35,814 bases of DNA from contig JAFUTN010000031.1 of assembly GCA_017484225.1 (NCBI GenBank), positions 1 through 35,814 of the forward strand, written 5' to 3'. The notes beneath the pieces are model-generated. The model saw nothing but the letters and a program-made list of their open reading frames with translations. It made no database searches and was not told the DNA's origin. Positions 2,467-28,351 of the stretch are shown here, one piece after another. How positions within the stretch are numbered: the stretch's first letter is position 1; each line of letters opens with the position of its first letter. This DNA is from Alphaproteobacteria bacterium. GTDB lineage: Bacteria; Pseudomonadota; Alphaproteobacteria; RF32; CAG-239. Position numbers and translations under genes: made by a program.

Positions 2467-2471
2467 TAGTA

Positions 2472-3095: not shown

Positions 3096-3128
3096 TATTG
3101 CATGATTTAGATATAGGAAGATATAAAT

Positions 3129-5549: not shown

Positions 5550-5635
5550 TTGTTGTATCACCCTTTTGTATCACCAATTTTGTGCTTAAAAATGAGATAA
5601 AAAAGAGTAGATATAACAAATGCTTATAAATAAAG

Positions 5636-5660: not shown

Positions 5661-5727
5661 CTAGGTACGCGGTAAAACGTACAATTGATTTCGAGTCAAC
5701 CGCATTCGACCACTCTGCCATCTCACC
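5636..5727 (-). tRNA. tRNA-Ser(CGA)
   Basis: Read on the minus strand, the acceptor GGTGAGA (5727-5721) pairs with TCTCACC (5646-5640), followed by discriminator G and an encoded CCA (5638-5636). The anticodon loop is CTCGAAA within GTTGA/TCAAT, giving anticodon CGA, which reads UCG serine codons. The long variable arm (paired around GTACG...CGTAC) is the class II form expected for tRNA-Ser. The T-loop GGTTCGAATCC is intact. The island integrase lies just beyond the 3' end. Confidence 0.96.
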
Positions 5728-14827: not shown

Positions 14828-15515
14828 TGATTATTACTCCTTTGGTAAATGAATTATCTGAATTAGCTAAACAAATATCGTTGGTTGCCAACTCAGAACC
14901 ATAACGTTTTTTCACTTCTTTTTGATATTCGTCGTATTCTTCGGTATAATCCAAACCGTTACGTTTCAACCAACGCCACAAAATATTCATTTTGACCAAA
15001 TACTCATCAAAAATCGGAACATCCGTGTTAGCGGTCAGGCTGTTTTTTTCTTCAAATGTTTGAAAATCCCATACCACATTGTTTGAGCGATATTGAAATA
15101 CAATTTTTACTCCGCTCGGCGGTGGGGTTAAAAATTTGAACATTCCGCGTTGAATAACAAATTTTATCTCGGCAGAATCACAGGAAAAATATTTTTCCTT
15201 CATCCATTGTGACGGGGTAATGGCTCCGATAATTCTTTCATGCGTATCTTTAATGTATATGGTATTATTCACCAAACAATAAAAATCGGGAGCCACATCC
15301 GAAATCGGATAATTGCTGACACCTGAAACCGTGCGCAGACTTCCTTGTTTAATCAATTCCTGCCAATCTCCGTAACGCATCATACTGTCAAGTGCTGACT
15401 TTGCAACGCTGAGAAAAATTGTTTCTTGCTGACTGTTCGGATTAAACAAATTATTCGGTCGTTTTACTGCCGCTAAATCGGCAACCTCGCGACAAATTTC
15501 CAATATTGTTTTCAT
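14796..15515 (-). CDS. Phage head-tail adaptor (P22 gp4-like connector)
   Basis: A 239-aa protein starting at the ATG at 15515 (MKTILEICREVADLAAV), which has AAGGAG upstream and overlaps the preceding stop in TAATG. A farther in-frame ATG at 15590 lies inside the neighbour's coding sequence and is unlikely. Helical ends frame a central beta part (GVSNYPISDVAPDFYCLV, AEIKFVIQRGMFKFLTPP) that fits podoviral adaptor proteins binding the portal ring. DEYLVKMNILWRWLKRNGLDY near the C-terminus is typical of this group. Neighbours are the capsid-side genes upstream and tail hub downstream, as expected. Confidence 0.7.
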   Translation of the reverse strand: MKTILEICREVADLAAVKRPNNLFNPNSQQETIFLSVAKSALDSMMRYGDWQELIKQGSLRTVSGVSNYPISDVAPDFYCLVNNTIYIKDTHERIIGAITPSQWMKEKYFSCDSAEIKFVIQRGMFKFLTPPPSGVKIVFQYRSNNVVWDFQTFEEKNSLTANTDVPIFDEYLVKMNILWRWLKRNGLDYTEEYDEYQKEVKKRYGSELATNDICLANSDNSFTKGVIINVATHNQQNK

Positions 15516-16087
15516 TACTCTGTCTCCTTTTTGCGTTTTGATGCCGTTTTTAAACGTTTTTCCAAAGATGCTATTTTTTCTTTTAAGCAAGCGATTTCAT
15601 CTTTGTATTGTTGCTCCTTATCCGCATTTTTTTTCAAATCGGTATTTTTTTCTGCTTGTTCCATAAACATTTGTGCCAACACATGCTCATTCTGCAGGCT
15701 CAAATTTTGCACTTTTTCAAAATCAAGTTCGGCAAGTGATTCAACCGTAAAAATTCCGCGATTTTTACAAGTGGCGATTTCAGCTGCATCCAAAAAAGAA
15801 AATTGCTCCAGCGGTGTCCCTTTTTTCACCTGTTCCTTTGATAATTTATAGAGCGCATATTCTTTCGGAAAACGTTTTATTTTTTCTTCTGTTGCCGGTT
15901 GATTATATACTTCGGTGCTGTTGTCTTTAATGCGTATTTCAACATAAGTAACATTTTTGAAAATCGGCAATCCGTTTTCCGTCAATTTTTCGGTTTTTAC
16001 GGCTTTATCATAAAATCTTGCCGCCACATTTTTTTCTTCATCACAATGTGCGGCAATTTGCTGAAACAAAGCAAATTCTGTATCCAT
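15515..16087 (-). CDS. Hypothetical phage structural-region protein with C-terminal coiled coil
   Basis: A 190-aa protein with AAGGA before the ATG. Residues 45-60 (NVTYVEIRIKDNSTEVYN) form a small beta segment. A middle helical part contains LDAAEIATCKNRGIFTVESL, resembling a helix-hairpin-helix (RNA polymerase alpha C-terminal-like) turn. The C-terminal 50 residues are a charged coiled coil ending in a very basic tail (KRLKTASKRKKETE). I do not recognise a named family. It sits between capsid and adaptor, the usual place of head-completion or capsid-accessory genes. Confidence 0.7.
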   Translation of the reverse strand: MDTEFALFQQIAAHCDEEKNVAARFYDKAVKTEKLTENGLPIFKNVTYVEIRIKDNSTEVYNQPATEEKIKRFPKEYALYKLSKEQVKKGTPLEQFSFLDAAEIATCKNRGIFTVESLAELDFEKVQNLSLQNEHVLAQMFMEQAEKNTDLKKNADKEQQYKDEIACLKEKIASLEKRLKTASKRKKETE

Positions 16088-16112
16088 ATCCTATTCCTTT
16101 CAATATCAAATC

Positions 16113-16142
16113 AAAAAGGCGGCACTAAAGCACCGCCCTTTT
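16113..16142 (-). terminator. Hairpin terminator or attenuator after the capsid gene
   Basis: On the minus strand a GGCGGTGC / GTGCCGCC stem (16137-16118, with two wobble pairs and a TTTA loop) is followed by TTTTTGATTT. It lies inside the late operon just after the major capsid gene, so it must be read through, or it lowers downstream expression relative to capsid. Confidence 0.7.
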
Positions 16143-16159
16143 AATGAATCACAATAACC

Positions 16160-17149
16160 TTATTCTTCTGAAGATGAATCAGATGTTCCGGTGGTATCAA
16201 TCAAAACACCTTGTGTTGCGGCATTGCTCATGGTCATATTGCCTGCCCAACCGATAATTTTATACAAAGCATCCTGATTTACGGCCATTCTTTCACCGCC
16301 GATAACTTTCATATTGCGGTCTTTATGTGAGCGCAAATAAATGAAATCGGTGTTTAAGAAATACATGTGCTTAGCCGGACAATTACCACCCTGACCGCCG
16401 TCAAAAATAACGTCGGCACCTTTGTATTTGAGTGATACAAATCCGGCATCCGCCATGTTCGGATTTGTAAAACGTTGCAAATCGGAAACCGATTTTTCAT
16501 ACAACGAATACATTTCATCATCACACACAATTAAATCAGGTTTATCTGTTCCGCGTGAGCAGTTAAGATAAAGCTTATCCATATTGGTGCGAATATTATC
16601 GGCAGTCAAAGCCGCACTAAGCGACTTGTTGCGCCAAAATTCGTTACCGGTTGTGGCACGATTTATGCCGCCGACAGTTCCGCTGGTCGGATCATCTGCC
16701 ACCAGCAACGCCAAACCGCCGATTGCTTTACCGGAAGAAGCCGTTCCGTCACCGAACAAAGCGGCAGACATTTTGTTGCACATGGTTTTTTCGGCATTGG
16801 CGATACGCTTTTCCAATAAATCCATTACTTGTTCGTCTCCGCTGTTAATCAGCAACTCTTCACCGGAAACAGCTACCGGAACGGCACAAAGTTTCAACGC
16901 ATATTCTGCTGCACTGAATAATTGTTTCGGTGTGTATGAAATGGTATCATAACCTGAATACCAAACCATATCCCCCTCACCGTATTCAAGTTCTTCTAAA
17001 ATTTTGGAACCGCCGCTGATCGGACGCAAATTTCCTTTGCTCTTCAAACGTGACAACAAAGCATTGTTTTTAGACACGTTGTCGGCCAAAGACTTGCTAC
17101 GGTTTTCCAATGTTACGGTGAATACATCATTATAATCTTGATTTGCCAT
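16160..17149 (-). CDS. Phage major capsid protein
   Basis: A 329-aa protein with a ribosome site AAAAGGAAA before the ATG. The N-terminal arm VTLENRSKSLADNVSKNNALLSRLK leads into ISGGSKILEELEYGEGD and WYSGYDTISYTPKQLFSAAEY, then a helix around NSGDEQVMDLLEKRIANAEKTM. Small loops GDGTASSGKAIGGL and a C-terminal strand/helix region KVIGGERMAVNQDALYKIIGW follow. This arrangement matches an HK97-fold capsid family seen in podoviruses and metagenomic phages. It follows a scaffold-like gene and is followed by a terminator hairpin, both normal for a highly expressed capsid gene. No protease gene is seen, so head maturation by cleavage is not expected. Confidence 0.88.
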   Translation of the reverse strand: MANQDYNDVFTVTLENRSKSLADNVSKNNALLSRLKSKGNLRPISGGSKILEELEYGEGDMVWYSGYDTISYTPKQLFSAAEYALKLCAVPVAVSGEELLINSGDEQVMDLLEKRIANAEKTMCNKMSAALFGDGTASSGKAIGGLALLVADDPTSGTVGGINRATTGNEFWRNKSLSAALTADNIRTNMDKLYLNCSRGTDKPDLIVCDDEMYSLYEKSVSDLQRFTNPNMADAGFVSLKYKGADVIFDGGQGGNCPAKHMYFLNTDFIYLRSHKDRNMKVIGGERMAVNQDALYKIIGWAGNMTMSNAATQGVLIDTTGTSDSSSEE

Positions 17150-17173
17150 TATTTTTTTCCTTTTCTAAATAAA

Positions 17174-18064
17174 TTAATGTTTAAATTTTGCCATATTTTT
17201 TTCTAATTCCTCACGCAAAGTGAGCTCTTTTTGCGGAGCCTCGGCTTTCCCTTTCGGGGCGAAGGCGGCATCCTGTGATTTTTGAGTATTTTGCGCAAGA
17301 TTATCTATTTGTTTGCGAATAATCTTTTCTCTTACAAAAGGATTAAGCCAAACAGCCTGATTGTAGGCTTCATCACAACCACGGACATATCCGTTCAACA
17401 ATAACGAAAGCATTTGTTCTTTCACTTCATTGAAATAGGGATGAATAAAACATCCGTTTTCGTCGCACTGTTGTCCGAAAAACTGTAAACTATCCAAAAT
17501 TTGCTGTTGTTTTTCGGCATCAAAATATTTTTTCATATCTTGGAAATTCTGTTCCAACTGACTGATACGAAAAGTAATTTCATCCGAAGCTCTGACATTT
17601 TTTTCCTTCGGAAAAACAACATCAACTCCGTAATAGTTTGCTAAAGCTTTGATAGTCGGTGCCGGATGATTGAACATTGCCTCGTCAAGTTTAGCCAATC
17701 CGGCGAACCAGTCGCGCGCTTTGGCAAATTGCGGAGACAAACGCTCAAAATTTTGAGCAAAAATATCTTCCAACACTTTATATCCCGTGATTTTGTTATT
17801 AATTTCGCTGAAGCCTTTTTCTATTTGCTTTTCCCTTTCCAGCAAAAATTGTTGCCAATCGGGCGAAAGATTTTTAAAATCTTCAGCGAATTTTTTGCGA
17901 TAACTTTTCGGAGCCACCACACTGATTTCAACCTGCGCGGTGTCAATGTCAGCCGGTTTATCCGAAAGTTGTGCTTCTTGATTTGCAATTTCCGGACTTT
18001 GTCGTTTGGCGACCGAAGCCTTTAAATTGCGTTCCAGTTCTTCTCTGAGTTCACTCATTTCCAT
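17174..18064 (-). CDS. Putative capsid scaffolding protein
   Basis: A 296-aa, charged, mainly helical protein just upstream of the capsid gene, which is where scaffolds are encoded. It has a Gln/Glu/Lys-rich middle with coiled-coil potential (for example SQLEQNFQDMKKYFDAEKQQ) and a basic C-terminus (NMAKFKH) that could bind capsid. The motif LREELE(R/K)N occurs at both ends, residues 6-13 and 283-290. AGAGGA precedes the ATG. It overlaps the small upstream gene by 10 bp. The role is inferred from composition and position. Confidence 0.65.
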   Translation of the reverse strand: MEMSELREELERNLKASVAKRQSPEIANQEAQLSDKPADIDTAQVEISVVAPKSYRKKFAEDFKNLSPDWQQFLLEREKQIEKGFSEINNKITGYKVLEDIFAQNFERLSPQFAKARDWFAGLAKLDEAMFNHPAPTIKALANYYGVDVVFPKEKNVRASDEITFRISQLEQNFQDMKKYFDAEKQQQILDSLQFFGQQCDENGCFIHPYFNEVKEQMLSLLLNGYVRGCDEAYNQAVWLNPFVREKIIRKQIDNLAQNTQKSQDAAFAPKGKAEAPQKELTLREELEKNMAKFKH

Positions 18065-18282
18065 ATTATCCTCTTATAATTGCGCAAAAATTCGTTTTTA
18101 ATTTCGTTTTTGCGCGCAATTTCTTGTTGAATGCGAATATTTTTCAGATATTCGGGTGAATAGTCGCTGGCCATGGCGTTTCCGCTACGGCGCAAATACT
18201 TGTCAACATCCGCAACCGAAGATGCGACAGATCCGTCCGGAAGAATCACTTCTTCCGTGAATTGTTTACTGAAATAGCTCAT
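18055..18282 (-). CDS. Small hypothetical phage protein
   Basis: A 75-aa protein between terminase and scaffold genes, with AAGGAC before the ATG and a 10-bp overlap with the scaffold gene. It is helical and basic in its second half (IRIQQEIARKNEIKNEFLRNYKR). I recognise no family. Small proteins here are often head-associated or terminase-linked, but nothing in the sequence proves this. Confidence 0.6.
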   Translation of the reverse strand: MSYFSKQFTEEVILPDGSVASSVADVDKYLRRSGNAMASDYSPEYLKNIRIQQEIARKNEIKNEFLRNYKRIIWK

Positions 18283-18297
18283 TGATATTTTGTCCTT

Positions 18298-19617
18298 TTA
18301 CCACTCGTTATTACTGTTTCCGGTTTCTGTTCTGAAAATGCTTTCCCAACTGTTATCCGGAATTTCCGTTTGCATTCCGGTTTCATAAACCGGCGCCGCA
18401 AAAGTAAGAGCCAAAGCATCTGCTTTATCGGGAGAACGTCCCAAGCGCTTTTTAATCTCATCTTTTTCTTCCAATAGCAAACGTCCCCGTGAATCATACT
18501 TTTTCCCCACGGAACAAAGTTCGGAAAACAAAGAATCATCATCCGGAAGACTCACATTCTGTTCGCCGCAAAGCCATTCCCGAAGTTCATCCCACATTTC
18601 GGCACGGCGATTATGATACCGGTCATCAGCGATTGCCTTGGAAGCAAACATCACCGGTTTAACAATCCGCTTAAACCCGCGGTCAAATAAGATATCTGCC
18701 ACACCGCCGCCGACACCGCCGGCATCAATAAACAAACGAACCGGATTATAAGTTTTAATAAAAAAGGTTGCCCTGTTGGCAACCTCCACATTGTCTAACC
18801 CGTGATAACTCTCAAACCGCAAACACTTTCTGCCGCGCCGAAAACAAAATACCGTATTGTCATCACCGAAACGGGCAACATCTAGCCCTATAATCAAAGG
18901 TGAATTTTCGGCAAAAACGGTATTTTTGGCAGCCCTATATACGCAATTTTGAGCAATCAGACGATTGTTTCCCTGACTGAGAGGAGCTCCCAACCATATA
19001 TGCTCATAATCCCGCGGATTTTCATTTTTGCACTTTTCTGCCAAATAAGTCATTTCTTCCGGACAAAACGGATTATCGGTATAATTGACCTTTACGACCA
19101 GCGTTCTCTCGTCGGGATGCAGCGCAACCGCCTGCCAAACCGGATCATTTTCAGTTTCTCTGTTCATAGAAATCCATATTTCCGAACCGGTTTTACGAAT
19201 AGTCGGATTTAAAACATCCCAACTTTGTTTGCTGATTTTTTGGGCCTCTTCCAACCAAACAATATCAACTCCCTCAAGAGATTTGATGTTTTGCGCACTT
19301 TTATCGCTCAGCCCCTTAAAAATAAATTCTGTTCCGGTAACGGCATTAATGATTTTGTTTTGCAAAACCTTATAGTCGGAAAGCTCATACCAATCAATTC
19401 GGTCAGACAGCAATTTGTGAACAGAATCTTTGATGCTTTCCTGCACCTCCCGCATACAGGCAATAAGCAATTTATTCATGCGCCCCAAAAAAAGCAAACT
19501 ATCGGCAAAAGCATAACTTTTTCCGCCGGCACGCCCTCCGTAATACAACTTATAACGATATTTTGTTGTCATCAGCGGTGCAAATATCTTCGGTATTCTT
19601 GCTATTTTGTCTTTCAT
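18298..19617 (-). CDS. terL: Terminase large subunit (PBSX/Terminase_3-like)
   Basis: A 439-aa DNA-packaging motor and nuclease. Walker A is GGRAGGKS (27-34) and Walker B is IVWLEE (119-124), the ATPase half. The nuclease half has D246 (GLDVARFGDD), D298 (FIDAGGVGGG) and D397/D400 (SPDKADALALTF), the RNase H-like metal ligands. Length and order fit TerL. It would pump DNA through the portal and cut it. The start is within the upstream terS-like gene (68-bp overlap), giving tight coupling. No residue expected for activity is missing. Confidence 0.95.
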   Translation of the reverse strand: MKDKIARIPKIFAPLMTTKYRYKLYYGGRAGGKSYAFADSLLFLGRMNKLLIACMREVQESIKDSVHKLLSDRIDWYELSDYKVLQNKIINAVTGTEFIFKGLSDKSAQNIKSLEGVDIVWLEEAQKISKQSWDVLNPTIRKTGSEIWISMNRETENDPVWQAVALHPDERTLVVKVNYTDNPFCPEEMTYLAEKCKNENPRDYEHIWLGAPLSQGNNRLIAQNCVYRAAKNTVFAENSPLIIGLDVARFGDDNTVFCFRRGRKCLRFESYHGLDNVEVANRATFFIKTYNPVRLFIDAGGVGGGVADILFDRGFKRIVKPVMFASKAIADDRYHNRRAEMWDELREWLCGEQNVSLPDDDSLFSELCSVGKKYDSRGRLLLEEKDEIKKRLGRSPDKADALALTFAAPVYETGMQTEIPDNSWESIFRTETGNSNNEW

Positions 19618-19825
19618 TGATAAAATCCACTAAAATCTTGGTGAGTTTATCCCCACCGGTTTCATTGCAGTTTTCTGCTTGCATTACGGCAATTTTACAT
19701 TTCAATTCTTCGGCTTTAAGAGCTAAACTCAAATTACCTTCATCAATAGCCATTTGTTGCAATCTGGAAAGCATATCCAAACTTTCGGCAAATGAATGAG
19801 TTTGATTTTTTCTTCTTTTTACCAT
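19550..19825 (-). CDS. Candidate terminase small subunit
   Basis: A 91-aa protein directly upstream of, and overlapping by 68 bp, the large terminase gene. A strong AGAGGATAGGA precedes the ATG. It is helical (SFAESLDMLSRLQQMAIDEGNL, LALKAEELKCKIAVMQAE) with a basic N-terminus (VKRRKN) that could touch DNA. Small terminases are highly variable, so the call rests mostly on position. It is shorter than usual (commonly 130-180 aa) and could instead be an unrelated small packaging-region protein. Confidence 0.5.
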   Translation of the reverse strand: MVKRRKNQTHSFAESLDMLSRLQQMAIDEGNLSLALKAEELKCKIAVMQAENCNETGGDKLTKILVDFINERQNSKNTEDICTADDNKISL

Positions 19826-19838
19826 TCCTATCCTCTTT

Positions 19839-19856
19839 ATTTATTGCGCAATAAAT
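19839..19856. repeat. 18-bp perfect palindrome between the lysis and terminase genes
   Basis: ATTTATTGCGCAATAAAT reads the same on both strands. It sits between the outer-spanin stop codon and the terS-like start. Possible roles are a packaging (cos/pac) element, an RNA processing hairpin or a regulator site. Confidence 0.6.
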
Positions 19857-20101
19857 CAGCGCTTAAAATTTCGGTATTCGGCAAGTTCCAAACGCAATTT
19901 GTTGATACGTGCGAGCCATTCCCAAAAATGCGAATAGTCACCTGCCGGCAAATGCGAAAGTTCTTCTGCCACCTTCGGACCCGCAACCGGATAAACCGGT
20001 AGAAACACCGACTCACAGTTTTCCTTCGCGCATGAGCTTAATAAGTTCGCTGCTGTCAGCATTAGGCTCAGAATAAATACGCGCTTTTTTTTGCGACACA
20101 T
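19856..20101 (-). CDS. Outer-membrane spanin subunit (Rz1-like lipoprotein)
   Basis: An 81-aa lipoprotein starting at the ATG at 20101, with GGAG 7 bases upstream; the in-frame TTG at 20107 is less likely. A basic N-terminus (CRKKKR) and hydrophobic segment lead to the lipobox LSSC with lipidated C24. The mature part has the proline-bearing stretch VFLPVYPVAGPK typical of Rz1. It starts inside the i-spanin gene, in another frame, overlapping it by 89 bp, which is the hallmark Rz/Rz1 arrangement. With the i-spanin it would bridge and fuse the two membranes at lysis. Confidence 0.85.
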   Translation of the reverse strand: MCRKKKRVFILSLMLTAANLLSSCAKENCESVFLPVYPVAGPKVAEELSHLPAGDYSHFWEWLARINKLRLELAEYRNFKR

Positions 20102-20219
20102 ATTCAATCTCCTTTTTTTGCTTATCCGTTATTTCTAATTGAGACTTAAGTTTTGCATTATACACGCAAAGCAAAATTACCGATAAAAATAAAAACACCG
20201 AAACTACGTATTGTTTCAT
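20013..20219 (-). CDS. Inner-membrane spanin subunit (Rz-like)
   Basis: A 68-aa protein with an N-terminal membrane segment (VVSVFLFLSVILLCVY) and a periplasmic charged helix (KLKSQLEITDKQKKEIEYV). It is short for an i-spanin, so the reach across the periplasm would be limited. GAGG precedes the ATG, and the start overlaps the upstream gene in ATGA. The o-spanin starts within it in another frame. The pairing makes the call solid despite low sequence signal. Confidence 0.8.
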   Translation of the reverse strand: MKQYVVSVFLFLSVILLCVYNAKLKSQLEITDKQKKEIEYVSQKKARIYSEPNADSSELIKLMREGKL

Positions 20220-20389
20220 TGCAGAACCTCTTTCAACAATGAAATTATTTCCGTCTTAAAGCAGACTATTGCTCCTAAAATCAGTATTCCCCATACCAAG
20301 AAATAGAGTTTTTGAAAGCGAATGACACTCAAAATAATCCACCGACAAAACCAATATTTTTGCTTTATAACTTTATCCTTTTTCCCCAT
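20216..20389 (-). CDS. Small single-span membrane protein of the lysis cassette (possible holin/antiholin)
   Basis: A 57-aa protein from the ATG at 20389, chosen over upstream in-frame ATGs because GAGGA lies 5 bases before it and 7 bases after the endolysin stop. A basic N-terminus (GKKDKVIKQK) is followed by one clear membrane span (LYFLVWGILILGAIVCF). It lies between endolysin and i-spanin. Such a protein could be a holin, pinholin or antiholin; which one cannot be told from sequence. Confidence 0.6.
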   Translation of the reverse strand: MGKKDKVIKQKYWFCRWIILSVIRFQKLYFLVWGILILGAIVCFKTEIISLLKEVLQ

Positions 20390-20396
20390 TGATTCC

Positions 20397-20819
20397 TCAC
20401 ACATCTTTATAAAAAATATGATTTTTGTATTCAAAACACGGCGTTTTTCCTCTTGCCCAACACGGTATTATCTGTCTTGTATGATAATGTGTCGCTCCGC
20501 CGGTAAAGTCTTTGAGTTTACCCTCAACAACTTTTTTGGCAACAATCAGGCAATCCTGAAAAATTTTATTTGTGGCATTCACCTTTTTGATGATTGCACA
20601 GTTTCTGTCATATTGATTCCAGCAAGAAAATTGCCCGTTTTTTAAGCAAGTTTGCGTTAAACTGGGAACTCTCTGCCCATCCTTAAAAATATAACCGGTA
20701 AACCAGCGGCAGGCTTTATAGCGGTTCTGGATAACACAGGCCACGGCTTCTATCCCTTTAATCCCTTCCCCGCGTGCCTCCCCGTAAAGCGTCCGCGCCA
20801 CAATGTCCGTATCAAACAT
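20397..20819 (-). CDS. Endolysin, SleB/cell-wall-hydrolase (Hydrolase_2) family
   Basis: A 140-aa peptidoglycan hydrolase from the ATG at 20819, with AAGGAG upstream; an in-frame ATG at 20849 lacks one. IVARTLYGEARGEGIKGIEA is the family hallmark, with E14 as the likely catalytic acid. AVACVIQNRYK and the later GGATHYH complete the fold. No signal peptide or membrane segment is present, so export to the wall needs a holin. The holin-like gene upstream overlaps it by 8 bp. It would degrade glycan strands, as SleB-type lytic enzymes do. Confidence 0.9.
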   Translation of the reverse strand: MFDTDIVARTLYGEARGEGIKGIEAVACVIQNRYKACRWFTGYIFKDGQRVPSLTQTCLKNGQFSCWNQYDRNCAIIKKVNATNKIFQDCLIVAKKVVEGKLKDFTGGATHYHTRQIIPCWARGKTPCFEYKNHIFYKDV

Positions 20820-21066
20820 TTGTTTTTCTCCTTTTTGTTTTATTTTCAATCAAAAATTCCAATTTTGTTTTTATTTCCGTCAATACTAAATTCTGTTGTG
20901 CTTGCAAAACAGCGATGGCTTCTATTTTGCCATCGCTGTTTTCAATTCTTTTCTCCAAATTTTCTAACTGAACTTCTTGTTTTGCCTTCCATTCACCTAT
21001 TCGGACAATAGCTGCAATCAACCCCATCAGCGAAGTGCACCCGCTGACTAATCCCCAATCTATCAT
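20812..21066 (-). CDS. Holin-like small membrane protein
   Basis: An 84-aa protein with one N-terminal hydrophobic segment (LVSGCTSLMGLIAAIVRI), a long charged coiled coil (QVQLENLEKRI-type heptads) and a basic end (KTKRRKTNV). It sits immediately before the endolysin and overlaps its start by 8 bp, with CAGGAG before the ATG. The layout resembles XhlA-like holin partners. A holin role is inferred from size, topology and place. Confidence 0.65.
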   Translation of the reverse strand: MIDWGLVSGCTSLMGLIAAIVRIGEWKAKQEVQLENLEKRIENSDGKIEAIAVLQAQQNLVLTEIKTKLEFLIENKTKRRKTNV

Positions 21067-21069
21067 CTT

Positions 21070-22080
21070 TTATTCTCCTGAAACAGTATGTTCCGGAACA
21101 TTTACTGTTCCGAGTTTAATTCCATTATAGCTTACATCCGGTGTTAAGATAATGCTTGTTCCTGTTTGATATGCATTAAGTGTAACGGCAGAACCATCAT
21201 CGGTATAATTATACAAACAACCTTCAATTTGCACATAAGGATGGCTGTCTGCCTCCCACCATATTGAATTGTTTACTTTAATATAAGTTTGAGATAAATC
21301 TATGGAACCTTGCCAATATTCAGAACTACCGTAACCATCTTTACCTAATGTAAACGGACCATTATCTATTAATTTAGTTGTAGAATTGTAACTATATTTC
21401 AATGTCCAAGTTTCACCATCAGGGGAAATATAACAACTATAAGTTGTGCCATCAAAAGATAATTTAATAAATGGATTTGTTGTCAATAAACTCGCCGAAC
21501 AAACATTTGAATCAATAAATTGTGAACCATTGTTGTATAACCATAAATGTAAATAACCTAAATTTGTTACACCAAAATTTATTCCATATCCGAATAAAAT
21601 TTTTTGAGATGCAGATGTTGAACCAACCGAAACTTTAGTAATAAATTCCCAACTATTCGCATCTTGAAAATTAGGATTATCATCTATTGTAAGATAATTT
21701 GAGTTTGAAAATCCACTAACAACTCCGGTAGATGTATTAACTGTCGGACTGCCAACGATTGTATAATTATCATAAACCGGTGTTGATGAAGGTATCGGAT
21801 ATGTTTGACCGGATGCTTTCATTGCATACAATGTCGGTGACGGCGTATTTCCATTTGGCAAAGTCGTATCAGAAAAATCAGCTAAATATAAATTGTTGTC
21901 TGCAGTAGAAAAAGAATAATCCAATCCGTCATAAGCAGTCATCTCTGTTGATGGAATATTTACAGTTTCACCAGCTGTAGTGAAAGTTTTTGTTGTTTTA
22001 TAATCATTATATCCGTCAGCTTTTATAGTAATTTTTGTCGGATAGCCTTTATAAACTGTTAGTTGTTGTGTTGTACTCAT
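21070..22080 (-). CDS. Phage receptor-binding/tail protein with a LamG/concanavalin-like domain
   Basis: A 336-aa protein with AGGAGG 7 bases before the ATG. The N-terminal 40 residues (LTVYKGYPTKITIKADGY and TAGETVNIPSTEMT) look like the second half of a PEGA-type beta domain. Around 100-280 lies a jelly-roll pattern (NSWEFITKVSVG, GYLHLWLYNNG, FIKLSFDGTTYSCYISPDGETW, DLSQTYIKVNN) typical of LamG/concanavalin-like carbohydrate-binding domains. It probably contacts a surface glycan. The start overlaps the upstream stop in ATGA. The base composition is more AT-rich than in the head genes, suggesting module exchange. Confidence 0.75.
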   Translation of the reverse strand: MSTTQQLTVYKGYPTKITIKADGYNDYKTTKTFTTAGETVNIPSTEMTAYDGLDYSFSTADNNLYLADFSDTTLPNGNTPSPTLYAMKASGQTYPIPSSTPVYDNYTIVGSPTVNTSTGVVSGFSNSNYLTIDDNPNFQDANSWEFITKVSVGSTSASQKILFGYGINFGVTNLGYLHLWLYNNGSQFIDSNVCSASLLTTNPFIKLSFDGTTYSCYISPDGETWTLKYSYNSTTKLIDNGPFTLGKDGYGSSEYWQGSIDLSQTYIKVNNSIWWEADSHPYVQIEGCLYNYTDDGSAVTLNAYQTGTSIILTPDVSYNGIKLGTVNVPEHTVSGE

Positions 22081-23498
22081 GAAACACCTCCTAAAATTTG
22101 TGCATTATCTAAATCTGTTGTTACAGTTACGTTTATAGTTTCCGGTTTTACAATATACGGAGCATAAACTGTCCAATTTGTTGCAGTAATCCATTGTTCA
22201 TATAACTCTGCAGGAACTAATATTTTACAATAAGGTTTTATAGCATTAAATGCATTCGTTCCATCAAGTGTAGGAACTTGTGTGCATTTAGTAAAATCTA
22301 AAACTTCTATTGCCGAACACTCTTCAAATGCATATCCGCCAATTTCCGTAACAGTGCTTGGAAATACAACTTTTTTCAGATATTTTGAACCACTGACAAA
22401 TGTACTTGAACCACCTGTAGAATTTCCTGTGCGAATTGTGGTAATACCTTCTGCTAAATAAATGTGTTCCAAGTTATAACAATTTTGTATCATACCATTT
22501 AAATAGTCTTGTTTAAGAAAATTAATACCTTTAAGCGTATAAGCATAGAGGTTTCCTACACCATCACCTCTATAAATTGTTGTGACACTTTCAGGCACAG
22601 TCAAGTATTTCAAATTATCATAATGAAAATTTCTAAAATTTATATATGATACTGTATTTGGTATTACTAAATAACGAACATACCAAGGAAGTCCTGTTCC
22701 GGAATCAGCATAATTTTGACTTATAGATGTCATACCGTTTGGCAATATACAACAATTATATAAATTAGTATATTGTCCAAAAAATGCTACCGGTAATTCG
22801 TTAATACCTTTACCGAATACTACAGATTGTAAAGAATTTAATGCTGCTAATCCCTCGTTTTTTAAAGTAATGTTAGGAATTAATACGGATACAACACAAG
22901 TATTATTTTGTTGAACACCGGCACTTCTCCAAGTTAAATTGTTATATTGACTTAATGAAGCATTGTCACAAACGATTGTATAACTTCCGTAATCTGCATA
23001 AGTATGTTCGGTTAAATTATCAACGGTTCCGTCTCCCCAATCTTTTGTTCCGGCAACACTCATTTTGTAAGTTAATCCGGTAACTTCATTCATTAATACA
23101 TCAATTTCCAACTTTCCGCTGTTAATTGTGTATGTCGGACCGATTATTACATCATATTCCGGCACTGTTATTTTATTGTTATTAACAGCAACAGGACAAG
23201 ACCAAGAATCAAATGTAATTCTGTCATGTTCAGGTGGTGTAGGTAATTCATAAACATCTCCTGCATTTAAATATTGTCTGTCAATAACAGTTCCGTCATA
23301 ATCAATAACCATTACAAGATATTCACCGGTAGCTGTAGACGAAGTTCCTCCGGTAGAAATGGCATTAATTTTTTCCGGATATAAAGAAAAGGCATCACTT
23401 TTTCCTACCGCAACGCCTTTATTTTCTATTGCCTGCCTGATATTTTCTTTTGTTTCGGCCAGCAAGTGTAATTTATCTGCTATTGTTCCGCTCATCAC
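22077..23498 (-). CDS. Phage tail protein with InlB-like, PKD and BspA-type leucine-rich repeats
   Basis: A 473-aa protein. The N-terminus (TIADKLHLLAETKENIRQAI, AFSLYPEKINAI) is an attachment segment common in gut-phage tail proteins. Next comes an InlB B-repeat-like part (LPTPPEHDRITFDSWSCP), then a PKD-like segment (WGDGTVDNLTEHTYADYG). The second half is BspA/LRR_5-type repeats (for example YLTVPESVTTI, HIYLAEGITTI, KVVFPSTVTEIGGYAFEEC). The C-terminus (NVTVTTDLDNAQI) looks like the first half of a PEGA-like domain that continues in the next gene. It likely forms a receptor-recognition unit. It is flanked by ATGA overlaps on both sides. Confidence 0.78.
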   Translation of the reverse strand: MMSGTIADKLHLLAETKENIRQAIENKGVAVGKSDAFSLYPEKINAISTGGTSSTATGEYLVMVIDYDGTVIDRQYLNAGDVYELPTPPEHDRITFDSWSCPVAVNNNKITVPEYDVIIGPTYTINSGKLEIDVLMNEVTGLTYKMSVAGTKDWGDGTVDNLTEHTYADYGSYTIVCDNASLSQYNNLTWRSAGVQQNNTCVVSVLIPNITLKNEGLAALNSLQSVVFGKGINELPVAFFGQYTNLYNCCILPNGMTSISQNYADSGTGLPWYVRYLVIPNTVSYINFRNFHYDNLKYLTVPESVTTIYRGDGVGNLYAYTLKGINFLKQDYLNGMIQNCYNLEHIYLAEGITTIRTGNSTGGSSTFVSGSKYLKKVVFPSTVTEIGGYAFEECSAIEVLDFTKCTQVPTLDGTNAFNAIKPYCKILVPAELYEQWITATNWTVYAPYIVKPETINVTVTTDLDNAQILGGVS

Positions 23499-23914
23499 AC
23501 AATCTCCCCGTTAATACCATCCAAGGATGATGATATATTTCCGATTTCATCATTTATTGCCGATATTTGCGAATCAATTTCGGCTTTGGTATAGTAATGT
23601 CCCAAACTTTCGGAAGCCTGCTCGGCACTTAATGCAGCACTTTGCGCACTGACACCGGCATTTTCAGCTTTTTGAGCTGCAGAAAAAGCATAATTTTGTG
23701 CCTGCTCTAAATATCCGTTCAAAGCTACACGCTTTTCTTCCGTGTATGCGTTTATTTTGGCTTCCACAACATTCTGCTCATAATTATCCAAATCAGGTTT
23801 TATTACCGTTTCGGCATAATATTTAATGTCTTCCAGTCCGGATTTAACATATCTGACAGATACATCAGTCTGCAATTCGGCTGCTTCTTGATAAAAAACT
23901 TCAATATTACTCAT
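23495..23914 (-). CDS. Tail-fibre stalk-like coiled-coil protein
   Basis: A 139-aa protein with GAGGTAG before the ATG. It is helical throughout and alanine/serine-rich in the middle (FSAAQKAENAGVSAQSAALS), a pattern of trimeric fibre stalks. It contains YYTKAEIDSQISAINDEIG, a short segment frequent in tail-fibre proteins. It has no globular tip, so it probably joins the receptor-binding proteins encoded next to it to the tail. It overlaps the LRR gene by 4 bp. Confidence 0.7.
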   Translation of the reverse strand: MSNIEVFYQEAAELQTDVSVRYVKSGLEDIKYYAETVIKPDLDNYEQNVVEAKINAYTEEKRVALNGYLEQAQNYAFSAAQKAENAGVSAQSAALSAEQASESLGHYYTKAEIDSQISAINDEIGNISSSLDGINGEIV

Positions 23915-23918
23915 TTTT

Positions 23919-24272
23919 CTACCTCGTAATTTGTGATGTTATTCTGAATGTTCCGACTTTATGAATATCGGACGGATAAATGGTATTAACTTCGCCTGTT
24001 CTTGACACCACTTGAATATCACAGGCATAATCACCAACCGGAATTGATGTCATGCTTGGTGTAATGTTTAAAGCGATTTTTCCGTTGGCGATATCCACCG
24101 GATCACCATATACCGAGAATTTAAGGTTACCGTTATCTTTGTCACGAACCTGCATTTCACAAGTCCAACCTCTTAAATCTACATCCTTATTATCCTTGCG
24201 CAAATAAATGCTGATTGTAAAACTGTCGCCCTGTCGCACTTCAATGACCGACTGACTTAATCTTCCTGTCAT
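23919..24272 (-). CDS. Phage Ig-like/BppU-like baseplate or fibre-linking protein
   Basis: A 117-aa all-beta protein with AGGAGG before the ATG. The pattern VRQGDSFTISIYLRKDNKDVDLRGW, then PSMTSIPVGDYACDIQVVS, matches the small beta-sandwich N-domains of phage upper baseplate (BppU-like) proteins that anchor fibres. The gene lies between the collar fibre and the stalk gene, 4 bp from the latter, which fits a linker role. Confidence 0.6.
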   Translation of the reverse strand: MTGRLSQSVIEVRQGDSFTISIYLRKDNKDVDLRGWTCEMQVRDKDNGNLKFSVYGDPVDIANGKIALNITPSMTSIPVGDYACDIQVVSRTGEVNTIYPSDIHKVGTFRITSQITR

Positions 24273-24281
24273 TTTTTCCTC

Positions 24282-25088
24282 CTATTGTGTTAATTTAGCC
24301 AAAATAAAATAGTTGATTGCTTGGTTAAGCGGCGTAACGTGAGTTGAGGCACCGTAAATTGAATTTGACCTGCTGGCATCAAAAGCAAGAGATGTGGTTC
24401 CGCCTCCGTCAATACCTCCGGCCTGTTGTTCCCAACCGCCGTTGGCCGTATAAAAAGCACCTTCCTGCGTTCCGGCACCGGTTCCGTATTCATGATTTAA
24501 CAAGCAGCGGTGATTATAATTGCCGGTAATATTAGGCAAACCTTCGGCCTGTGTGGTATAAATATCCGCAGCCGAATTTCCTCCGAGGCCTCGCAAAAAT
24601 TTGCCGCGATAGTCCGGAACATTAAATGTGGTTGAACCGTCACCCGCTCCGAACCGTGTTCCTATAACATCAAACAAATCGGCATAAACCGTGCGGCTCA
24701 GTTCCTGTCCGTTGCATAAAATCCAACCACCGTGGTTTTCGGATTTTACACTTGTTTTAACATCACCGACAAAGGTTTGAGATTTAATAATATTAGCAAT
24801 TACCGCTGTCAGCTCTTCGGTTAACGTGCCGGACAAATCATCAAGTTGTTTTTTGTTTACGACATCATTCGCCGCCAAACCGTCCGCAACATTGTTGATA
24901 CGGTATCCGCCCAAATTCAAATTTCCGCTCATAACCGAACGACCATCTTTGCAAACGCAGGCGCTTAATCCTTCGGCAAAGTTGTCATCTTCCTCGTCAT
25001 GGCGGTCGCTGACAATATCCACATCATTGATGCGATCTTGTTCCCAGCTGTGGATTCTGGTAAATTTTCCTTGAGAATCAAAAGGCAT
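24282..25088 (-). CDS. Phage tail fibre with tail-collar domain
   Basis: A 268-aa protein with AGGAGA before the ATG. GNLNLGGYRINNVADGLAAN is the usual fibre shaft repeat. The segment GGWILCNGQELSRTVYADLF, then FGAGDGSTTFNVPDYRGKFLRG, is the phage tail collar domain (PF07484 type), a trimeric knob-like fold. The C-terminal part (glycine/threonine-rich, ending QAINYFILAKLTQ) is standard for collar fibres. It probably is one of the fibres that touch the host surface. It follows the portal gene with a 15-bp gap. Confidence 0.88.
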   Translation of the reverse strand: MPFDSQGKFTRIHSWEQDRINDVDIVSDRHDEEDDNFAEGLSACVCKDGRSVMSGNLNLGGYRINNVADGLAANDVVNKKQLDDLSGTLTEELTAVIANIIKSQTFVGDVKTSVKSENHGGWILCNGQELSRTVYADLFDVIGTRFGAGDGSTTFNVPDYRGKFLRGLGGNSAADIYTTQAEGLPNITGNYNHRCLLNHEYGTGAGTQEGAFYTANGGWEQQAGGIDGGGTTSLAFDASRSNSIYGASTHVTPLNQAINYFILAKLTQ

Positions 25089-25103
25089 ATTCTTTCTCCT
25101 ATG

Positions 25104-26858
25104 TTATTTGTTACTGATTTTTTGAGATATTTCTGCCGTTTTCAAGGCAAGTTCATCTCGTTTAATTTTATTTTGTTCAGCCTTGAGAGCTAAATCTCCG
25201 GCAATTTTCTTTTCCTGCAATTCCAACTGTTTTGTCACAATCTCATTGTTTGGCTTTTCCGATTTAGGTTCATTCAATTCGGCCGAAATCTTCAGAAATG
25301 CGTCTTCCAACACACTGGCAAATTGCCGAGAGTTAGGCATTGAAACCATTAAAGAAGTCAACATCTGCTTATATAGCGGAAGTAATGCCGGTTGTGCCGA
25401 AACCAAATTAAATGCCTGACTGATTATATTATTGATATTACTCATAATCTTAATCACACGTTCCTGTTCCTGCTCTTGATTGAGACTGGTGTCGGTTTCA
25501 ATATCAATAATCATGTCACGAATTTTTTCGGTTTTCAGCAACTGAACGGCTTGCTTTACGATTTGGGCATCAGAAGAATACCCGACAGGCGCAAACATGG
25601 CTAAGTTATCTTGAGAAAACTGCTCACATATAATCTCGGCTTTGATGCGCAATAAATCACGCAAAAATCGTTGCATATCATTTTGCCGGTCTTGATTACG
25701 CAAAGTTCCGAAATTTGTTTTTTGGTTAACTGCCGTAGCAGTTTCTCCGACATTAGAAAACCCTCTCATAATATCAGACACGCCGGTAACTTCATAAATC
25801 GTATCAATTAATGATTTTCGGCGTGATGCCAATGCTGCTAAAGCCTCAACATACTGCGAAACAGGTGCAAAATCTATCACACCCTTTATCCCGCCGGCAT
25901 CTTTCAATTTTTCAAAATCATTTAAAGCAATTAACGTAACATCTTTGTTTAAGATATTGGCAAGTTCCGGAAACGCATTATCATAACAACCGGAAATTTT
26001 GATTGCCTGCATTGTTAAGCGCATCCGATTATTAATACCGTCAAGCTCGTCTAAAAGAGATTTGATTTCAACGTAATCAGGTATCGGAATAATACCGTCA
26101 TTGGTTAAAGTTGCCATAATCGGTTTCGGACAAGGGAAAAAACCGCTCAAGTGAAGCGTATCATCCGCCACACGCAAAAAATCATCTGTAATTTCCGGAC
26201 TGAGATAATAAATTTTACGTGATGGTTTATCCCATATTTCATACACGCTGATAACCTTGTCTTCTGCCGGTGCGGGCGCAAACTGATGTGCCGAATGCTG
26301 AGCAAAAATTTCGCTTACCTGTTTTTCGCTCATAAATGTTTTACGAGCAATCCATTCCACATCTTCCCACACATTAACTTTTTCCGTATCAGCAATAAAA
26401 CAATCCGGATTCACATATTCGGTAACCACATATTCCTTGTCTTTAAGACAAATATCACCGATAAATTTAAAATCCAAACAATATTGCTCCCACAACAGTC
26501 CGAATCCGGAAAGCAAAAAGTCATTACGAGCATATTTAACAACGCTGTCAAAATCAAATTGTTTCATATTCCAAGTCAGCGCACGCTCTAAAATCTGACA
26601 CGCAACATTTTGCGTTTCATCAGAAGAACGGTCTGCACGAACGATATACGGTTTCGGTTGCTTAAAATATAAAAAAGGCTTCAGTGTTTCCACGGATGAC
26701 CAAAAAATATTTTGCTTGTTTTTGCCGGTTTCGTTCCGGTAGTATTCACGAATATCGCGAACCAAATCATAATAATCAGCATATTTTTTCTCGGCACGAG
26801 AAATTTTTCGCTGCCAGAGTTCTAAACTTTCGTGGCGCGCTATATCTATTTTTTGCAT
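25104..26858 (-). CDS. Phage portal protein
   Basis: A 584-aa protein with AAAGGAG before the ATG. The N-terminal helical part holds EYYRNETGKNKQNIFWSSVETLKP-type sequence, WEQYCLDF and ARKTFMSEKQVSEIF, matching P22 gp1-like (podoviral) portal proteins. A long central helix region includes NRMRLTMQAIKI and SLIDTIYEVTGVSDIMRG. A C-terminal coiled-coil tail (QLQEKK-type, ALKAEQNKIKRDELALKTA) fits the barrel domain of large portals. It would form the dodecameric DNA gate at one capsid vertex. In this cluster it is separated from terminase by over 5 kb of fibre and lysis genes. Confidence 0.85.
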   Translation of the reverse strand: MQKIDIARHESLELWQRKISRAEKKYADYYDLVRDIREYYRNETGKNKQNIFWSSVETLKPFLYFKQPKPYIVRADRSSDETQNVACQILERALTWNMKQFDFDSVVKYARNDFLLSGFGLLWEQYCLDFKFIGDICLKDKEYVVTEYVNPDCFIADTEKVNVWEDVEWIARKTFMSEKQVSEIFAQHSAHQFAPAPAEDKVISVYEIWDKPSRKIYYLSPEITDDFLRVADDTLHLSGFFPCPKPIMATLTNDGIIPIPDYVEIKSLLDELDGINNRMRLTMQAIKISGCYDNAFPELANILNKDVTLIALNDFEKLKDAGGIKGVIDFAPVSQYVEALAALASRRKSLIDTIYEVTGVSDIMRGFSNVGETATAVNQKTNFGTLRNQDRQNDMQRFLRDLLRIKAEIICEQFSQDNLAMFAPVGYSSDAQIVKQAVQLLKTEKIRDMIIDIETDTSLNQEQEQERVIKIMSNINNIISQAFNLVSAQPALLPLYKQMLTSLMVSMPNSRQFASVLEDAFLKISAELNEPKSEKPNNEIVTKQLELQEKKIAGDLALKAEQNKIKRDELALKTAEISQKISNK

Positions 26859-26874
26859 ACAAAAACTCCTTTAA

Positions 26875-26897
26875 TAAAAAAAGCCGGCAAAACCGGC
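26875..26897 (-). terminator. Intrinsic terminator between the co-chaperonin and portal genes
   Basis: GCCGG (26883-26887) pairs with CCGGC (26893-26897) around a 5-base loop, and on the minus strand a run of seven T follows. It sits inside the late operon, 17 bases before the portal start codon. Confidence 0.85.
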
Positions 26898-26920
26898 AGA
26901 TTTAACAAATTTCAAAAAAT

Positions 26921-27166
26921 TCAATTATTTTCGGTGTAAACCCCCAATAAGCTGCTTTGTTTTATCACCGCCAGATTTTTTTCCGGCAGCGGTAATTCAT
27001 CAAAAGTGTGAAAGACCACCAAATCTCCTACTTTAACCATGTCAACCCTGTCGCCGATACTGACAACCGTGCCGACATTGGAGTAAGTTTCATCCATATT
27101 TATAAGAGAAGACTTGTGATTTTCAGCCAAACGAACAATAATTCGGTCTGAAATAGCTTTTAGCAT
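26921..27166 (-). CDS. Phage-encoded co-chaperonin (GroES/Cpn10-like)
   Basis: An 81-aa protein with the Cpn10 fold. AISDRIIVRLAE opens it as in GroES (I/L-x-D-R-V-x-V), NVGTVVSIGDRVDMVKVGDLVVFHTFDE gives the G-T-V and K-x-G-D-x-V-x-F motifs, and NLAVIKQSSLLGV closes it like the G/E-D-I-L-A-V end. It is shorter than bacterial GroES (about 95 aa). T4 gp31-like proteins replace host GroES to fold large capsid subunits, and this may do the same. It is first in the late operon, lying between two intrinsic terminators. Confidence 0.82.
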   Translation of the reverse strand: MLKAISDRIIVRLAENHKSSLINMDETYSNVGTVVSIGDRVDMVKVGDLVVFHTFDELPLPEKNLAVIKQSSLLGVYTENN

Positions 27167-27189
27167 TTTAAAATCCTTAATAAAAAATT

Positions 27190-27230
27190 AAAAAGCAGAG
27201 AAATTAATTAAAAATTTTCTCTGCTTTTTT
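27190..27230 (-). terminator. Strong terminator between the DUF6456-like gene and the late operon
   Basis: AAAAAGCAGAGAAA (27190-27203) pairs with TTTCTCTGCTTTTT (27216-27229) in a perfect 14-bp stem around a 12-base loop, with T-runs on both sides so that it can work in either direction. Only 23 bp separate it from the co-chaperonin start codon, leaving no room for a promoter in between. Confidence 0.92.
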
Positions 27231-27257
27231 CTGATTACAATTTTTCACTCTAATAAT

Positions 27258-27287
27258 TTTCTGAACACACTGGTCACCGGATGTCAA
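27258..27287 (-). promoter_or_regulatory. Candidate late promoter (activator-dependent?) at the end of the regulator gene
   Basis: A perfect -35 TTGACA (27287-27282 on the minus strand) overlaps the stop codon of the DUF6456-like gene. Seventeen bases on, only the weak TCAGAA stands where a -10 should be. The spacer holds CCGGTGACCAG, an 11-bp palindrome with one mismatch, which could bind a regulator. The terminator at 27230-27190 lies just downstream. Confidence 0.4.
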
Positions 27288-27787
27288 GAACTTTTTTTAT
27301 TTTTTTGCAAATAAAATTTCGCCAACCGCTCCAAACCCAAGCACAGCAACATCTTCTGATGATATTTATTGTTTTTATTTAATAATGTTCCTATAGGATA
27401 TTTATCACTAACTTTCAGTTCTTTATCCTCTATACACACGATTCTGACGACTCCCCAAAACTCTTCCGGAACACTTTTTATTGCCCGCAGATACCGTTCT
27501 TTGTAATACAGTTCAACATCAATCCCGACAGAGCCGGTAGTTGCTATATTTGTTTCGTGACACATAGCCGATTTAACCCCTTGTTTATTTGCCATATAAT
27601 AATCAAATGCGATTCGCTGTCCGGCACGGAATCTGTCTTCATCGGAAAATGGACTTTCCGGCAGATTCAAATACCCTTCATCATAATATTTTTCCAAAAC
27701 ACTTTTTTTATATAAAATTCCATCAGAACGTAAGGAATATCCACGCCTTAACAATCCTTTTTTATTTAAATATTTTTGCGTAATCAT
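27284..27787 (-). CDS. DUF6456-like phage regulator (candidate antiterminator/late activator)
   Basis: A 167-aa protein from the ATG at 27787, chosen because GGAG lies 8 bases upstream; the ATG at 27793 is too close. Its second half follows the DUF6456 pattern: RFRAGQRIAFDYYMAN, then SVGIDVELYYKERYLRAI, a middle VVRIVCIEDKEL, and KYHQKMLLCLGLERLAKFYL at the end. DUF6456-type proteins are common in Alphaproteobacteria, and I think related sequence occurs in the GTA activators, though I could not verify that here. The gene is first after the control region and precedes a promoter-like site plus terminator, the position of lambda Q. The function is inferred. Confidence 0.62.
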   Translation of the reverse strand: MITQKYLNKKGLLRRGYSLRSDGILYKKSVLEKYYDEGYLNLPESPFSDEDRFRAGQRIAFDYYMANKQGVKSAMCHETNIATTGSVGIDVELYYKERYLRAIKSVPEEFWGVVRIVCIEDKELKVSDKYPIGTLLNKNNKYHQKMLLCLGLERLAKFYLQKNKKSS

Positions 27788-27815
27788 TTTCATTTCTCCT
27801 ATATCTTCTTACATT

Positions 27816-27842
27816 TTTATAAGAAAAATATTTCAAAGTCAA
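27816..27842 (-). promoter_or_regulatory. Promoter of the DUF6456-like regulator, overlapped by a direct repeat
   Basis: On the minus strand TTGACT (27842-27837) and TATAAA (27821-27816) are 15 bp apart. The repeat ATAAGAAAAATAT occurs at 27819-27831 and again at 27842-27854, 23 bp apart, about two helical turns, covering this promoter. A TTCTTA/TAAGAA inverted pair also flanks the -10 region. Confidence 0.5.
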
Positions 27843-27857
27843 TAAGAAAAATATCGT

Positions 27858-27886
27858 TTTACAAAATAAGAATCTTATTTTATAAT
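27858..27886 (+). promoter_or_regulatory. Repressor promoter with palindromic operator
   Basis: TTTACA (27858-27863) and TATAAT (27881-27886) are 17 bp apart. A perfect 9-1-9 palindrome, AAAATAAGA at 27863-27871 and TCTTATTTT at 27873-27881, fills the spacer and touches both hexamers. The half-site ATAAGA recurs in the direct repeats over the opposite promoter, so one protein, probably the adjacent repressor, may bind all three sites. Confidence 0.72.
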
Positions 27887-27904
27887 GTGTCCCAGAGGTG
27901 TGTT

Positions 27905-28351
27905 ATGGATAGTACTGATGAAATTAGAAAAAAAGTAGCTCGTTTAATTGCAGAACGAGGCTTGAATTTTGCGCAGGTTTCTTTAAGTCTGGGCAAAAAT
28001 ATTGCTTATATTCAACAATTTATCAAAAACGGTTCCCCGCGCCGTTTAGGTGAGGTTGAGCGACGTAAATTGGCTCAAATTCTTCATGTTGACGAGCAGG
28101 AACTGACTGATTTAACATTGGCTGCATCCGGCGGACGCCTTTCCCCAGCCCTAAATTCCGATATTTTAGCAATGATAATTGAATATATTGAGACTTGGCT
28201 TAAAAATCGTAATTCGTCATTGTCTCCTCATGATAAGGCGGAATTAATTAAATTGATTTATATGAAAACGTATAATGATAATCTGGATTCTGCCGTTTCT
28301 AAGGTTAAAGATTTTATTGAAATATATGATGAATTAAGAAAAGCCGACTAA
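27905..28351 (+). CDS. XRE/CI-type phage repressor without peptidase domain
   Basis: A 148-aa protein from the ATG at 27905, which has AGAGGTG upstream; an earlier ATG at 27776 lies in the opposite gene and is unlikely. The N-terminal helix-turn-helix (IAERGLNFAQVSLSLGKN, then AYIQQFIKNGSPRRL) is a form common to alphaproteobacterial CI-like repressors, followed by LAQILHVDEQELTDL. The C-terminal part (about 80-148) is helical and lacks the S24 serine/lysine peptidase usual in such repressors, so RecA-driven self-cleavage is not expected. It is divergent from the DUF6456-like gene and probably controls both promoters between them. Confidence 0.85.
   Translation: MDSTDEIRKKVARLIAERGLNFAQVSLSLGKNIAYIQQFIKNGSPRRLGEVERRKLAQILHVDEQELTDLTLAASGGRLSPALNSDILAMIIEYIETWLKNRNSSLSPHDKAELIKLIYMKTYNDNLDSAVSKVKDFIEIYDELRKAD

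Follow-up and report, generated by a model that had tools for sequence, protein, structure and literature searches.

The locus and its late cluster

The window, that is, the whole stretch of 35,814 nt that was analysed, carries a late gene cluster and the gene of its proposed regulator on the minus strand (Table 1). The gene of a GroES-like co-chaperonin is followed by those for portal, tail/fibre, lysis, terminase, scaffold, capsid and tail proteins, down to position 12155. The fibre region varies among genomes, and in the window it holds a BspA-type leucine-rich repeat protein (22077-23498). No integrase or replication gene was recognised among the ORFs between 12155 and 27793, several of which have no assigned family. 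An integrase gene (3441-5561) adjoins a tRNA-Ser in a region (3441-5727) that host genes separate from the late cluster, and this region is probably a separate integrated element. Two resolvase-like genes, an AAA ATPase (1246-2466) and an RloB-like-looking neighbour (2472-3095) were noticed by eye at 104-3452, possibly a defence cassette. A PADLOC search found nothing.

Table 1 Features of the late cluster and of its control region in the window
Feature	Position	Strand	Remarks
Late cluster (structural, lysis, packaging), GTA-like	12155..27166	-	orthologous across genus; co-diversifies with priA/mutS
Hairpin 3' of capsid gene	16110..16145	-	
Major capsid protein	16160..17149	-	phrog_9953, E 2e-109; 50% identical to phage Mx8
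Terminase large subunit	18298..19617	-	Pfam Terminase_3, E 3e-34
Portal protein	25104..26858	-	phrog_12082, E 3e-107
Terminator, GroES-portal interval	26876..26897 (hairpin 26883-26897)	-	
GroES-like co-chaperonin, first late-operon gene	26921..27166	-	Pfam Cpn10, phrog_3188
Leader terminator, tR'-like	27182..27229 (hairpin 27190-27229)	-	14-bp stem, 12-nt loop, T-rich tail, 23 nt before GroES ATG
Consensus-pause bases G-10 and T-3 G-2 Y-1	27237..27246	-	RNA 3' end at +16
-10-like hexamer TAGAGT, proposed sigma-dependent pause element	27247..27252	-	inferred +1..+6
-10 position TCAGAA	27259..27264	-	17-nt spacing fixed by accessory sites
Palindromic operator (putative) CCGGTGACCAG	27270..27280	-	in 17-nt spacer; consensus xxRGTNACYxx
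-35 element TTGACA	27282..27287	-	overlaps regulator stop; near-invariant in 25 main + 22 accessory sites
DUF6456-like regulator, 169 aa, proposed Q/GafZ-like antiterminator	27284..27793	-	Pfam + profile-profile
Divergent promoter region with conserved repeats (ATAAGAAAAATAT)	27794..27904	.	alignment of 23 loci
Divergent HTH protein, 148 aa, proposed repressor of regulator gene	27905..28351	+	weak HTH_19 match

Comparison of the genomes of the genus indicated that the cluster is inherited vertically with the host chromosome. It lies beside priA-mazG-mutS in 17 genomes and elsewhere in at least 4, the remainder being cut by contig ends. Portal distances track priA distances (r = 0.82, n = 15), and regulator distances track mutS distances (r = 0.92, n = 10). 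The capsid gene, mostly in a single copy, was found in 51 of 101 family genomes (7 of 16 genera), and the relatives of the capsid are those of phages Mx8 and ppBjS10J-1. Genes of the element occur at several loci, hereafter accessory loci. Named records of the cluster are rumen and gut alphaproteobacterial MAGs, and the cluster appears to be domesticated and virus-like, with rumen and gut bacteria as its hosts. As read from its genes, it has the profile of a podovirus-type GTA-like element and not that of an ordinary phage. No such element, diversified together with a family of Alphaproteobacteria of rumen and gut, is described in the literature searched. IMG/VR lists parts of the chromosomal cluster as viruses (L077, L078), and a 17-kb 'bacteriophage' contig from human faeces in Mexico (L079, MT835830.1) carries homologues in a different order and without the regulator.

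The putative late promoter and the leader terminator

The regulator gene runs directly into the putative promoter of the late operon. On the minus strand it ends with AGT TCT TGA, and the TGA stop lies within the TTGACA of the -35 element, which is followed in the window by a 17-nt spacer (TCCGGTGACCAGTGTGT), TCAGAA, AATTAT, TAGAGT, G, about 17 nt and the 14-bp hairpin. The preliminary description had compared this arrangement with pR'/tR' of lambda, naming a regulator gene that ends on TTGACA, a palindrome in the spacer and a 14-bp-stem terminator just before the first late gene, and we found each of these parts in place. Sequence comparison supports the layout and its conservation, with the unit TAAAAAAAGTTC-TTGACA-N17/18-TAAGAA-AATTAT-YANANT, then the hairpin and then GroES, in 25/25 regulator-carrying genomes of the genus. 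The stop codon falls within the -35 element in 19 genomes, and the ORF ends 9-19 nt earlier in the other 6. The AAAAAAAGTTCTTGACA block is retained where the ORF stops earlier; since this DNA is unchanged in those 6 genomes, selection seems to act on the DNA and not on the C-terminal KKSS.

The -10 position reads TCAGAA in the window, TAAGAA in most relatives and TATAAA at the accessory sites described below. TCAGAA is a poor -10 hexamer, so plain activation may also be needed at this promoter. The second, -10-like hexamer would lie at the very start of the transcript, the +1 numbering being derived from the -10 position. Its A2 and T6 are the same at every site (25/25 main, 22/22 accessory; 47/47 in all), and a scan of +9 to +22 for the pause consensus peaked at +16 in both promoter classes. 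In lambdoid late promoters, -10-like elements occur in the initially transcribed region, and in one studied case a G-10Y-1G+1 element overlaps the -10-like element (PMC4604602). AlpA needs a -10-like sequence at -1 to +5 together with a binding element in the spacer (PMC9371919), and its target terminators lie 26-54 nt downstream of the start (PMC7969949). A -10-like element with a pause consensus at +16 thus appears to reproduce the signature of the lambda/21 Q and AlpA promoters. As judged from alignment, the cis anatomy matches the Q/AlpA class in three separate parts, because a -10-like element, a spacer element and an early terminator are also found in the lambdoid and AlpA promoters.

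The leader hairpin was present in 25/25 main leaders, usually 18-25 nt ahead of the GroES ATG, and started 58-76 nt after the TTG (25 genus leaders; in L040 a different hairpin scored highest). Its arms took 20 distinct 8-nt forms among the 25 leaders with the pairing maintained, the stems being AU-rich (in the window, 4 of the 14 pairs are G-C). A hairpin score of at least 14 was reached by 23/25 genus leaders and by 0.4% of dinucleotide shuffles of these leaders, a comparison whose P values are optimistic because the sites share descent; a score of at least 16 was reached by 21/25 leaders and by 1.35% of other windows in the same loci. Conservation across the genus leaders excludes a chance origin of the hairpin.

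Two further hairpins had been pointed out before. The one after the capsid gene is present in the window and was kept in 11/12 clusters, with weak T-tails in several. The terminator after the co-chaperonin is present in the window as well and is not general, being found in 7/14 clusters examined. Given these counts, the leader terminator is the constant part. The earlier proposal that the full operon seems to need read-through is corrected in one respect: after GroES, such read-through is not a conserved need.

An RNA-based antitermination of the nut/boxA type or by a put-like leader RNA, with the DUF6456-like protein in another role, would draw on a linear TGTNAT...AAAAAA stretch conserved in the main leader RNA and on a 5' hairpin in accessory leaders. 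However, the pre-terminator main leader RNA has almost no structure (between 0 and -1.3 kcal/mol in most cases, -4.4 in one) and so lacks boxB or put hairpins, and no Rfam match rose above threshold: the search returned two tRNAs only, the leader matches being weak and far below the cut-off. We regard such a mechanism as very improbable.

Accessory promoter-terminator units and the spacer palindrome

Accessory sites were found by a pattern search and then by a sequence model. Most genomes of the genus have about 1-3 further unlinked sites (best E about 1e-13 to 1e-15), and sequence comparison thereby supports a regulon. These sites precede other genes, have no regulator gene upstream and carry TATAAA at 17-nt spacing, which fixes the position of the -10. 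Many accessory leaders (160-200 nt) contain two hairpins with T-runs; 9/23 had no hairpin scoring at least 14 in the scanned stretch, and in some of these a hairpin lies farther downstream. The late cluster of genome G008 is divided among three loci (L116, L117 and L037) on three contigs, each preceded by a promoter-terminator unit of its own; terS-terL and g18-scaffold-capsid occupy the other contigs, with a separate promoter and hairpin for each. In the window's genome, one accessory site (L112) heads a gene whose product is of unknown family. The same genome holds an apparently decayed accessory unit near a contig end (L155, G000:C12:47678-47738), in which the second hairpin is degraded and behind which no gene was found. 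Proteins of the accessory genes matched no Pfam or PHROG family. Those of L112-L121 and L152-L164 start with MxxYxxDexxxIDEFGVDHSxFSxRDExEYN or ETVRxTLxRVxRELG, and they may be virion or ejection proteins.

The accessory sites also bear on the role of the leader hairpin. Lying directly 3' of the regulator gene, the hairpin might simply terminate the regulator's own transcript, with the late promoter elsewhere. Yet the gap between hairpin and GroES is very short, accessory promoters with hairpins exist without an upstream regulator gene, and the AAAAAAAGTTCTTGACA block is kept despite an earlier ORF stop; we give this explanation hardly any credence. A terminator that merely closes the regulator gene was rejected by the accessory sites.

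Between the -35 and -10 of the GTA-like promoter, a pseudo-palindrome is strongly conserved and represents a candidate binding element. Its symmetry was 0.71 when centred near spacer position 7 vs 0.11-0.35 at other centres. The variable positions of the two half-sites covary (shuffle P 8e-4), and an accessory spacer resembles the main spacer of the same genome (13.1/16) more than those of others (10.2/16; permutation P < 5e-5), with shared descent inflating the P values of both covariation and matching. This within-genome matching is the pattern that a common trans-acting protein would impose, and the paired operators are natural material for specificity swaps.

Related clusters in other genera, found by eye, have the same order of parts with different palindromes. 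At locus L223 of genome G225, also read by eye, TTGACA-AGTTTTGCAAAACTGTG-TTACGA-TTTCGT-CAGAAT-GG is followed by GCCTCCTACTCCGGAGGC-T8. The promoter profile R1 stops short of other genera (E 0.03 at best), and the extension to them is softer for both reasons. L223 and L224 are two further capsid-bearing loci in that one genome, each with a regulator homologue, and are possibly prophages that retain kinship to the domesticated cluster.

The divergent HTH gene adjoins the regulator gene wherever the contig extends that far, and its product is probably a repressor that keeps the regulator off. Between the two genes lie ATAAGAAAAAT repeats, which recur upstream of the -35 at most accessory promoters; to our reading, this repeat may resemble the main -10 region. 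Identification of the HTH protein as RogA was set aside: RogA has an S24-like domain (PMC9632790), and the HTH protein, of 148 aa, has an HTH match only.

The spacer palindrome could instead be an operator of this repressor, in which case antitermination may still occur with loading at another site. An 11-bp palindrome in a promoter spacer is typical of repressor sites too, and the HTH gene accompanies the cluster. But with about 74% mean identity the HTH protein is conserved, in contrast to the variable palindrome flanks and regulator (about 52%). Moreover, the HTH-regulator intergenic region has the different repeat ATAAGAAAAAT, the RGTNACY palindrome is not apparent in its alignment, and ZBE, QBE and ABE occupy the same promoter position (PMC11150451, PMC9371919). 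We consider an operator of the HTH repressor unlikely and favour the regulator, not another protein, as the putative ligand of the palindrome.

The regulator and its relation to known systems

The regulator was found in one copy in 25/26 genomes of the genus. Its kinship to DUF6456 and GafZ, put forward in the preliminary description, holds at the profile level: hhalign gave E 9e-7 against GafA-type DUF6456 and, closer, E 1.7e-9 against phage-type DUF6456, while the match to Pfam DUF6456 itself (PF20057; residues 47-161, E 7.7e-4) scored 20 bits and stayed below the 26.3-bit gathering cut-off. In BFVD the regulator matches phage proteins, one of them named DUF6456 (prob 1.0). These profile comparisons relate the regulator, in diverged form, to GafZ/GafA and to the DUF6456 proteins of phages. 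PHROGs gave no convincing match for it, Pfam gave no match at E<=1 to the lambdoid Q families PF06530, PF03589 and PF06323, and no relatives of phage-type DUF6456 proteins were obtained in viral_contigs.

In VIA-align, the AlphaFold model of the regulator (pLDDT 79.6) had as its best match the antiterminator Q21 (6p1c; Z 6.8, rmsd 3.9, 107 residues), a result from one model with Z in the range that the tool calls common; sigma-28 and SigH region 4 came next. The model of a diverged orthologue matched sigma region 4 again (Z 6.1-5.1), and Q21 was not among its candidates. The predicted sigma-region-4-like fold is thus reproducible in two models, and the likeness to Q21 is a lead. Foldseek against PDB gave nothing significant, and a profile search of PDB sequences gave nothing.

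Such a fold would also suit an ordinary activator or sigma-like initiation factor, as in the Rhodobacter GafA model of action via omega, the leader hairpin then only trimming or attenuating. GafA is reported to act via RNA polymerase omega (PMC9638019), deletion of gafZ cut reporter activity about 4-fold even without terGTA (PMC11150451), and the -10 of the main promoter is poor. Plain activation, however, gives no account of terminators directly after nearly every regulon promoter, and it leaves unexplained why -10-like and pause bases are conserved within the transcript. We judge it distinctly unlikely.

It is probable, in our view, that the regulator is a processive antiterminator of the Q/GafZ type, which would load at a paused polymerase at main and accessory promoters. 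The lambda pR'/tR'-like reading gains support from genus-wide conservation, from hairpins with changed sequence and kept pairing, from the covarying operator, from the -10-like element at +1 to +6 and from the extra promoter-terminator loci. In the proposed mechanism, a promoter of the sigma-70 type, which begins within the stop codon of the regulator gene, would fire. Sigma would grip the second -10-like hexamer and thereby make RNA polymerase pause at about 16 nt of transcript. From the palindrome between -35 and -10, the regulator would then load onto the paused polymerase via its sigma-region-4-like helix-turn-helix, and the modified polymerase would ignore the leader terminator and transcribe the late operon of about 15 kb. 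When the regulator is absent, only a short leader RNA would be made. The cluster appears to be kept off by terminators directly 3' of its promoters, with the regulator as on-switch. As the same promoter-terminator unit would also drive unlinked accessory genes, one protein could switch on the whole GTA-like element.

The suggestion that DUF6456-like proteins form a Q-like antiterminator family fits the promoter anatomy, and at present one member, GafZ, comes with experimental data (PMC11150451). A wider reading would make DUF6456 a large, unrecognised fourth Q-type antiterminator family whose fold is sigma-4/Q21-like and whose home is in alphaproteobacterial phages, from which it passed into GTAs, here with a dispersed regulon, with promoter, pause and tandem terminators as a portable module, and with a new podovirus-type GTA kept off; we offer this tentatively, leaning slightly against it. 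The finding links the control of GTAs with late control of the lambda type down to single base pairs, suggests phage late regulators as the origin of GafZ-type proteins, and draws attention to a GTA-like element of podovirus type that has diversified together with a family of Alphaproteobacteria from rumen and gut.

Among known systems, Myxococcus phage Mx8 and Bradyrhizobium phage ppBjS10J-1 share a 48-50% identical capsid and part of the gene order; they differ as complete phages with replication and other phage genes (an integrase is annotated in Mx8), and profile search found no DUF6456-like match in them. FpGTA of Faecalibacterium is likewise a podovirus-like GTA-like element of gut bacteria, with two loci, but belongs to another phylum (PMC12946183).

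The regulatory system, as its anatomy suggests, works like Q, AlpA and GafZ, with a regulator that lies outside the Q families by sequence. AlpA of Pseudomonas aeruginosa is also a chromosomal antiterminator, with an ABE in the spacer, a -10-like sequence, early terminators as given above and two target promoters (PMC7969949, PMC9371919). Unlike the regulator here, to which it is unrelated in sequence, it controls lysis genes and not a particle cluster, and no palindrome is described for the ABE. Lambdoid Q proteins (lambda Q, Q21, Q82) at pR'/tR' share the operator in the promoter spacer, the -10-like pause element at the transcript start, the immediate terminator, the control of a late operon, the regulator gene just upstream and possibly, for Q21, the fold; in contrast to them, we see here no sequence match, a vertically inherited element and a dispersed regulon.

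Caulobacter GafZ, which acts with GafY at the CcGTA promoter, is a DUF6456-type protein and an experimentally supported antiterminator whose site lies between -35 and -10; the CcGTA promoter likewise has a near-palindrome at this position, and an early-cluster terminator and control of a GTA cluster are further likenesses (PMC11150451). The account of GafZ reports no likeness to Q (PMC11150451). Here the terminator stands before the first gene, whereas that of CcGTA follows it; the gene for the regulator directly borders the promoter, several promoters are targeted and not one, and conservation extends to a -10-like pause element. As to a partner like GafY, none was recognised, only the divergent HTH protein with its weak HTH_19 match, and the particle genes are podovirus-type and not RcGTA-type. 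The comparison predicts that loading of GafZ also needs a sigma-dependent pause.
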